Virus record (IMG/VR): IMGVR_UViG_3300018028_000002
Coordinates: 1-22,648 of that record
Source: a virus
Reading direction: 5' to 3' (one strand)
DNA length: 22,648 bases
Position 1 is the stretch's first letter. The number at the start of each line of letters is the position of its first letter. The notes below the pieces were generated by a model. It saw only the letters and a list, made by a program, of their open reading frames with translations, was not told where the DNA came from and searched no databases. The translations under genes and the position numbers were made by a program. Positions 17,973-22,648 of this stretch are shown piece by piece.

Positions 17973-18186
17973 GTTCGTCACTCATGCGCGCTATGTCATG
18001 TTCATCATGTTCATCCGTTGAACGATCCCTTGATTCTATATTACGGGGGGAGTTAGCATAAAAAGCCAGGCCCATACCAACAGCCGTCAGTATGAGAGTC
18101 ATGTTTGGATTTGTTGATTTGGATGCTGCTGCGGTAAGTCCTGCTGCAACGGCTCCTATCATCAAAAGGATGTCTTTTCTCTTCAT
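17965..18186 (-). CDS. Small membrane protein, possible holin
   Basis: The product has 73 residues: a short basic start (MKRKD), a first hydrophobic segment (ILLMIGAVAAGLTAAAS), a short loop with Pro and Asn (KSTNPN) and a second hydrophobic segment (MTLILTAVGMGLAFYANS). A charged hydrophilic tail follows ([20 protein letters not shown]). Two membrane segments with a charged C-terminus fit small class II-type holins, and it lies near the M15 peptidase. Holin function is inferred. No clear binding site precedes the ATG; a 17-codon frame ends 7 bases upstream and may couple translation. Confidence 0.65.
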   Translation of the reverse strand: MKRKDILLMIGAVAAGLTAAASKSTNPNMTLILTAVGMGLAFYANSPRNIESRDRSTDEHDEHDIARMSDEHG

Positions 18187-18193
18187 GTAATGA

Positions 18194-18203
18194 TTACATG
18201 TAA
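18194..18203. repeat. TTACATGTAA palindrome before the holin-like gene
   Basis: A third copy of the palindrome, 8 bases upstream of the ATG at 18186, followed on the minus strand by TCATTACATG. It also forms the end (Tyr, Met, stop) of the possible 17-residue peptide. It may be an operator or a coincidence of coding sequence. Confidence 0.45.
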
Positions 18204-21579: not shown

Positions 21580-22152
21580 TTACTCATTAAGGTCAATTAC
21601 TCCGAACCTGTCCTCTGACATTATTTGTGGAGCGTATACAATAAACTGAACACCATTATTTTGATTGACTGATTTATCGACTTCTGGTTCCATTGACTTA
21701 ACTACGGCAGATGCCGCGTTCATTACTGATGCTAACTCGACTAGTTTCGCATTCTGAAGCTTCGCTTCAGTGATAGCGTCGAGAGCTTTAATCAATTTGT
21801 GTGATGCTTTATTTGATATATTCAACTTGCGACGATTAATGTGAGAGAGGATTTCGGCTTCGCGCGAATGATATGACTTCGTGCTCGTGCTGCCATTGGC
21901 ATATGCTGAAACACTAGAAGGACTGATATCGAATATCTTCGCTAATTTAACACCCTCAGCCCTGCCATCGATTTCTGAAGTCTCTCCGATTATCTTTCTT
22001 AGGCTTGAAGGAACGTTATTATCACCCTTATTCCTGCCGTGTTCATTCGGCATCTCCACTATGCTCGGAGTTGGCGAATTATGACACGTCTCGTTTCGAT
22101 TTAATGATTTTAATTCGTGTTCAAGATCTGAATCGTTGACTACACCCATCAT
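21580..22152 (-). CDS. Putative terminase small subunit or HTH DNA-binding protein
   Basis: The product has 190 residues. The first 65 are polar and probably disordered. A helix-turn-helix follows in GVKLAKIFDISPSSVSAYAN (about residues 67-86), with a small helix, a Ser-Pro-Ser-Ser turn and the recognition helix. The second half is a long helix pair (KASHKLIKALDAITEAKLQN, then LASVMNAASAVVKSMEPEVD). The tail QFIVYAPQIMSEDRFGVIDL resembles the C-terminus of small-terminase-like phage proteins as I recall them, which would contact the large subunit or portal. AAGGA lies 9 bases before the ATG at 22152. It is the first convincing gene after the promoters. A transcription regulator is the main alternative. 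Confidence 0.65.
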   Translation of the reverse strand: MMGVVNDSDLEHELKSLNRNETCHNSPTPSIVEMPNEHGRNKGDNNVPSSLRKIIGETSEIDGRAEGVKLAKIFDISPSSVSAYANGSTSTKSYHSREAEILSHINRRKLNISNKASHKLIKALDAITEAKLQNAKLVELASVMNAASAVVKSMEPEVDKSVNQNNGVQFIVYAPQIMSEDRFGVIDLNE

Positions 22153-22164
22153 AACATTTATTCC

Positions 22165-22174
22165 TTACATGTAA
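22165..22174. repeat. TTACATGTAA palindrome overlapping the terS ribosome site
   Basis: A perfect 10-base palindrome. Its last bases on the minus strand run into the AAGGA ribosome binding site of the putative small terminase gene. The same 10-mer occurs at 18194-18203 and 22463-22472, each time in sequence outside the long genes. A protein bound here could block translation initiation or nearby transcription. Function is inferred. Confidence 0.6.
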
Positions 22175-22417: not shown

Positions 22418-22446
22418 TGTATACTCTATCTCAGAGCCAAAGTCAA
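22418..22446 (-). promoter_or_regulatory. Sigma70-like promoter for the late gene block
   Basis: On the minus strand TTGACT (22446-22441) is followed after exactly 17 bases by TATACA (22423-22418). The boxes match the consensus at 5 of 6 and 4 of 6 positions with ideal spacing. Transcription would start near 22411 and give a leader of about 260 bases before the putative small terminase ATG. Confidence 0.6.
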
Positions 22447-22462: not shown

Positions 22463-22472
22463 TTACATGTAA
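22463..22472. repeat. TTACATGTAA palindrome upstream of the proximal promoter
   Basis: A perfect palindrome formed by TTACA directly joined to TGTAA, 17 bases upstream of the -35 box at 22441-22446. A further TGTAA lies at 22481-22485. The position suits an activator or repressor site acting on the promoter. Confidence 0.55.
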
Positions 22473-22496
22473 TCACTACGTGTAATGGAGCATAAT

Positions 22497-22571
22497 ATGG
22501 GACCCTATTTTGAAAATCTAACATAACAATCGGGTTCACCCCCAAGGGCCTGCGCCAGCGAGATGGGACCC
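22497..22571. repeat. Direct repeat ATGGGACCC, two copies
   Basis: Identical 9-mers ATGGGACCC lie at 22497-22505 and 22563-22571, 66 bases apart, each followed by an AT-rich stretch. They lie between the two promoters in gene-free DNA. They may be binding sites; two copies alone do not prove function. Confidence 0.5.
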
Positions 22572-22582
22572 AAAAATATTCG

Positions 22583-22612
22583 TGTATGGGGGTGTAAGAA
22601 TTACATTGTCAA
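22583..22612 (-). promoter_or_regulatory. Second sigma70-like promoter with perfect -35
   Basis: On the minus strand a perfect TTGACA (22612-22607) is followed after 18 bases by CATACA (22588-22583), a weak -10 box. The spacer contains the inverted repeat TGTAAGAATTACA. A strong -35 with a poor -10 and an operator-like spacer fits a regulated promoter. Confidence 0.45.
22593..22605. promoter_or_regulatory. Operator-like inverted repeat within the promoter spacer
   Basis: TGTAA (22593-22597) and TTACA (22601-22605) form a perfect inverted repeat around GAA, between the -35 and -10 of the distal promoter. Binding there would occlude RNA polymerase. The half-site TGTAA is the same element found in the palindromes and the phased repeats nearby. 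Confidence 0.5.
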
Positions 22613-22646
22613 GTAAAAAGTTGTAATTATTTGTAATCAAATGTAA
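22612..22646. repeat. TGTAA elements phased at 10 bp
   Basis: TGTAA occurs at 22622-22626, 22632-22636 and 22642-22646, exactly 10 bases apart, and a variant AGTAA lies at 22612-22616. All are on one face of the helix. Phased short direct repeats are typical of multi-subunit protein binding, as in iterons or packaging sites. The window ends 2 bases later, so the array may continue. Confidence 0.6.
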
Positions 22647-22648
22647 AA

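Follow-up and report, generated by a model that had tools for sequence, protein, structure and literature searches.

What reads the crowd of TGTAA and TTACA pentamers at the right end of this viral sequence, and what does that reading control? The window (the whole stretch of DNA analysed, 22,648 nucleotides, a 22.6-kb IMG/VR record) stops inside the crowd. Contig G001 (34.5 kb) is identical to the window and extends past its end. A third contig, G006, begins 152 bp past the window end and stops inside the window's first 123 bases. Together, the three overlapping contigs indicate a phage genome of about 47 kb. The contig ends of two records from the same phage (window 22648, G006 position 1) thus lie 152 bp apart within the control region; the other break is the 123-base overlap between the window start and the G006 end.

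Late genes occupy the minus strand, beginning with a terS-like gene, and early genes the opposite strand. Positions 22463 to 22648 separate the late block, which opens with the terS-like gene, from the early/replication block, and form the divergent control region of the two. Early-arm products include a SNF2 helicase with an intein, a PD-(D/E)XK nuclease, an AAA protein, and polymerase-like proteins (this last label was read off the translation and does not come from a domain search). The intein, with a LAGLIDADG domain, lies inside the SNF2-type helicase (L009 7078-9879, minus strand). Searches found no integrase in the approximately 47-kb phage, no near match among GenBank phages, no Rfam match at the gathering threshold, and no GTDB provirus match to indicate a host. 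The family comprises at least 97 TerS-bearing contigs; a close cultured member was not found. Alignment of the terS-like protein recruited 80 relatives, 62 of them non-redundant at 85%.

The TGTAA cluster

The first step is to ask what the cluster contains:

22463 to 22472, unstranded: TTACATGTAA, palindromic operator-like site, centred 21.5 bp upstream of the −35 element in the late promoter candidate
22463 to 22488, plus strand: 13-bp tandem pair TTACATGTAATCA/CTACGTGTAATGG, read from the sequence; the same TACATGTAATCACTACRTGTAA occurs in relative L182
22593 to 22605, unstranded: perfect inverted repeat TGTAA-GAA-TTACA, read from the sequence
22607 to 22612, minus strand: TTGACA, −35-like, without a convincing −10
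22622 to 22646, plus strand: three TGTAA exactly 10 bp apart, read from the sequence
22418 to 22446, minus strand: late promoter candidate TTGACT-17-TATACA, leading into the late block (9/12 consensus match)

The eight pentamers begin at 22463 (−), 22468 (+), 22481 (+), 22593 (+), 22601 (−), 22622 (+), 22632 (+), and 22642 (+). At the window's own rate, 0.71 would be expected per 186 bp, and 300 order-3 Markov genomes gave no 186-bp segment with more than 6, short of the 8 observed. The original prediction, eight in about 185 bases where fewer than one is expected, therefore holds. Across the whole window TGTAA is in mild excess (86 versus 54 expected), so that the signal is the cluster and not the pentamer alone.

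Two further predictions were borne out: the exact 10-bp spacing at 22622, 22632, and 22642, and the pairing of two pentamers in the perfect palindrome TTACATGTAA. Moreover, the sequence to the right of 22648, recovered through G001, supplies a fourth TGTAA at the next 10-bp step, 22652 (L009 13853, minus strand), followed by an inverted TTACA at L009 13830. The array is not a perfect tandem duplication, because its internal spacers vary from copy to copy. The surrounding 100 bp are 23% GC (0.2 percentile), among the phage's most AT-rich DNA; AA/TT periodicity of the array reaches only the 90-94th percentile.

The inverted repeat had been placed as an operator in the spacer of a TTGACA promoter. 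It is indeed perfect and adjoins the minus-strand TTGACA, but the promoter is rejected: the best −10, at 18-nt spacing, is CATACA (3/6), absent from the consensus scan.

The palindrome and its recurrence

Three more features lie outside the cluster:

21580 to 22152, minus strand: terS-like helix-turn-helix (HTH) protein, 190 aa, first late gene, assigned from position and HTH
22165 to 22174, unstranded: second TTACATGTAA, immediately 5' of where the terS-like gene starts, overlapping the Shine-Dalgarno TAAGGA (minus strand)
18194 to 18203, unstranded: third in-window TTACATGTAA, intergenic, in 13-bp tandem with TGTAA at 18186

These two palindromes, together with the 13-bp spacings at 22468/22481 and 18186/18199, go beyond the original prediction. 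In 36.5 kb, TTACATGTAA occurs five times, versus 0.08 in Markov genomes, and is the most repeated 10-mer palindrome. All five copies are intergenic, falling within the 12.7% non-coding fraction. Across the 62 relatives, 28 copies lie in 170 kb of control and early DNA upstream of terS, versus 4 in the 325 kb that comprise terS and the DNA beyond it on the downstream side; the reversed-letter control gives 0 in each. Whole records hold 34 copies versus 1 for the control (G030 contributes 3 of these as duplicates). The copies in relatives are syntenic, occupying the divergent region, the start of terS, and the gaps that separate early genes E1, E2, and E3. Thus one palindrome recurs at several promoters and is depleted in coding DNA, as dispersed operators are. 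The exact sequence is present in only about one quarter of relatives; L004 and L006 lack it despite the same gene order, and L005 carries a variant, TACAAGTA-N5-TACTTGTA, at the two equivalent positions, one upstream and the other where terS starts. No phage operator of this sequence was found in the literature, judged by titles and abstracts of the matches listed for the string. The palindrome is probably the functional unit of the region.

Spacing between half-sites also recurs, in part. In the relatives' control DNA, same-strand TGTAA spacings peak at 13, 26, and 39 bp and at 10, 20, and 30 bp. The 13-bp tandem spacing is found in L161, L177, L182, and L205, with 26 bp in L144. Most of the 10/20/30-bp series is due to the window phage and to L167; of 50 relatives searched, L167 alone has a 10-bp TGTAA triple. 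Thus the 13-bp spacing is kept in several relatives, and the 10-bp array in one. The L167 array was found independently by a blind array scan (as L042), and lies at −489 to −449 relative to terS, versus −504 to −474 in the window phage.

How do the sites lie relative to promoters? Four sites (three TTACATGTAA and one TTACTTGTAA variant) are centred 15.5-37.5 bp before sigma70-like −35s, in both directions; the four promoter candidates are one late (22418-22446) and three early. This placement would be more natural for an activator or architectural protein than for a repressor that simply blocks the promoter. Because relatives lack the same offset, as scanned with a simple sigma70 consensus, it only hints at an activator-type role.

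A possible origin or packaging site, and a one-way element

Might the repeats instead mark a replication origin? On that view, the tandem TGTAA/CATGTAAT units would be iterons for an initiator, unwinding would start in the AT-rich DNA next to them, and the dispersed palindromes would be additional sites for the initiator, through which promoters close by are repressed as well. Tandem repeats (13 bp in several relatives, 10 bp in the window phage), a stretch at the 0.2 percentile of GC, and a location at the early/late divide upstream of replication genes would all suit an origin. However, TTACATGTAA sites are spread over three intergenic regions plus the distant one at 18194, no initiator was identified, the 8-kb GC-skew profile makes no sharp switch at the array, and many relatives lack the repeats. 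We consider an origin unlikely.

A packaging site is somewhat less likely again. Here, a ring-shaped small terminase would wrap the phased, AT-rich array, start packaging, and repress its own operon. The array lies directly upstream of terS, its members are helically phased, and contig breaks of this phage fall 152 bp apart within the region. There is also a parallel: the SPP1 pac region contains direct repeats, spans the terS promoters and start, and forms a complex with TerS that lowers transcription of TerS's own operon (PMC4737164). In the window phage, as in SPP1/SF6, repeat-bearing DNA covers the terS promoters and start, and by this analogy TerS might act on the 10-bp array itself, repressing its own operon. 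Against packaging, A/T phasing of the array is only at the 90-94th percentile, and contig G001 runs through the region without a break. Unlike in SPP1/SF6, moreover, the palindrome is dispersed through the early arm (1-3 kb away), and the identity of TerS comes from position and HTH only.

The terS-like protein had been proposed as the binder. Its predicted structure (pLDDT 79.7) comprises an HTH and a helical middle, and in a fold search with this model no TerS was matched significantly, Sf6 coming closest (E 2.8). The recognition helix, SPSSVSAYA, hardly varies, whether or not a phage carries TTACATGTAA, and further copies of the site lie in the early block, far from terS; the protein is therefore a doubtful reader of the palindrome.

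A second element near terS is strictly directional, which would suit a directional packaging mark:

22496 to 22505, minus strand: family-conserved one-way element GGGTCCCATA, full copy, from k-mer analysis and relatives
22563 to 22571, minus strand: shorter second copy GGGTCCCAT, read from the sequence

In about 39 of the 62 phages, ATA-GRGTCYC-ATAY occurs upstream of terS in a single orientation. Among k-mers in 60 upstream regions, GGGTCCCATA occurs at 20 loci and GAGTCTCATA at 17 (expected, 0.4 to 1.1); all 50 copies of GRGTCYCATA are oriented in the terS direction; and a longer form gives 18 matches versus 1 for the control (26 records). Outer letters covary (37 GGGTCCC, 22 GAGTCTC, 3 others), as would be expected of a palindrome read by a dimer. 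Our guess is that the element marks the late promoter or packaging. The control region may carry two DNA codes, a pairing to which we give only a small chance: dispersed TTACATGTAA for transcriptional timing; and the one-way, covarying element, which the conserved TerS HTH would read to set the direction in which late transcription or packaging proceeds.

Other signals were seen in this phage and its relatives. A different palindrome, GGGTATACCC, often as ATGGGTATACCC, is strongly enriched in the terS upstream DNA of 11 of 60 relatives. The leader TCCGAAAGGACG, a small hairpin with the Shine-Dalgarno in its loop and stem, recurs in relatives, often immediately 5' of the ATG of early genes (relative to terS: L161, −3799; L205, −4043; L171, −912). 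In the window phage, an early leader beyond the window holds a hammerhead-like ribozyme, CTGATGAG-TCCGAAAGGA-CGAAAC (L009 12859-12915, minus strand; Rfam HH9, 24.9 bits, E 6e-4, below the gathering threshold), to which the other non-redundant relatives show nothing clearly equivalent.

Finally, it is unlikely that the 10-bp array is a non-functional short tandem repeat beside a palindrome that alone is functional: viral contigs often contain short-repeat arrays with a period of 10 or 11, and only one other relative has this array, but its spacers differ between copies, it holds the same position in L167, and dense inverted half-sites surround it. The notion that 10-bp TGTAA arrays form a special viral class was rejected, since 11-bp arrays are also numerous (at least as many as the matches listed) and AATGT arrays number 110.

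Candidate operators on both arms

The reading that we prefer, at about even odds (roughly 0.5), is that TTACATGTAA and the TGTAA half-sites are dispersed operators of one putative DNA-binding protein, acting on both arms. A single protein is probably at work on the palindrome and the helically phased half-sites. It is likely dimeric, because TTACATGTAA is a perfect palindrome, and would sit upstream of both early and late promoters. The tandem sites (13-bp pairs and the 10-bp array) would allow cooperative loading beside the divergent promoters, and this loading would set the order of early versus late transcription. The sites themselves, their excess, their restriction to intergenic control DNA, and their recurrence in relatives are observed; binding, dimer formation, cooperativity, and the direction of effect are inferred. 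The original idea of a binding region that heads the late block thus survives in its repeats, its position, and a conserved palindrome concentrated there, without the TTGACA-promoter operator.

The regulator may be phage- or host-encoded. Among early genes of the relatives, none tracks with TTACATGTAA presence; early proteins scanned with Pfam include no small winged-HTH (wHTH) RDF; and no cognate repressor known from phages was found among this phage's proteins.

Dispersed repressor operators are familiar from temperate phages with a known repressor: the CIRs of phiC31 and the stoperators of L5. As in those phages, one palindromic or short site is repeated at several promoters; unlike them, the window phage yielded no such repressor. 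The region is therefore likened to dispersed-operator systems and not placed in a named one, since a cognate regulator was not identified.

Apl of phage 186 provides another comparison: the repeats to which it binds are spaced by one turn and lie between divergent early promoters (PMC7498355). The four TGTAA at 10-bp steps resemble the sites of Apl and other RDF/Cox/Xis proteins: short direct repeats one helix turn apart, near divergent major early promoters, with cooperative binding expected. There are also differences: no integrase or att site was seen, the early proteins scanned include no wHTH RDF, and neither the palindrome TTACATGTAA nor the 13-bp spacing belongs to the Apl pattern. By analogy, the layout would work like the Apl and SPP1 regions; membership in neither is established.

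The region is a new, sequence-defined and functional-looking example of a phage multi-operator control region. It gives a large family of uncultivated phages a regulatory code that can be tested, and supplies exact short baits for the regulator: TTACATGTAA, the 10-bp array, and ATAGGGTCCCATAT.
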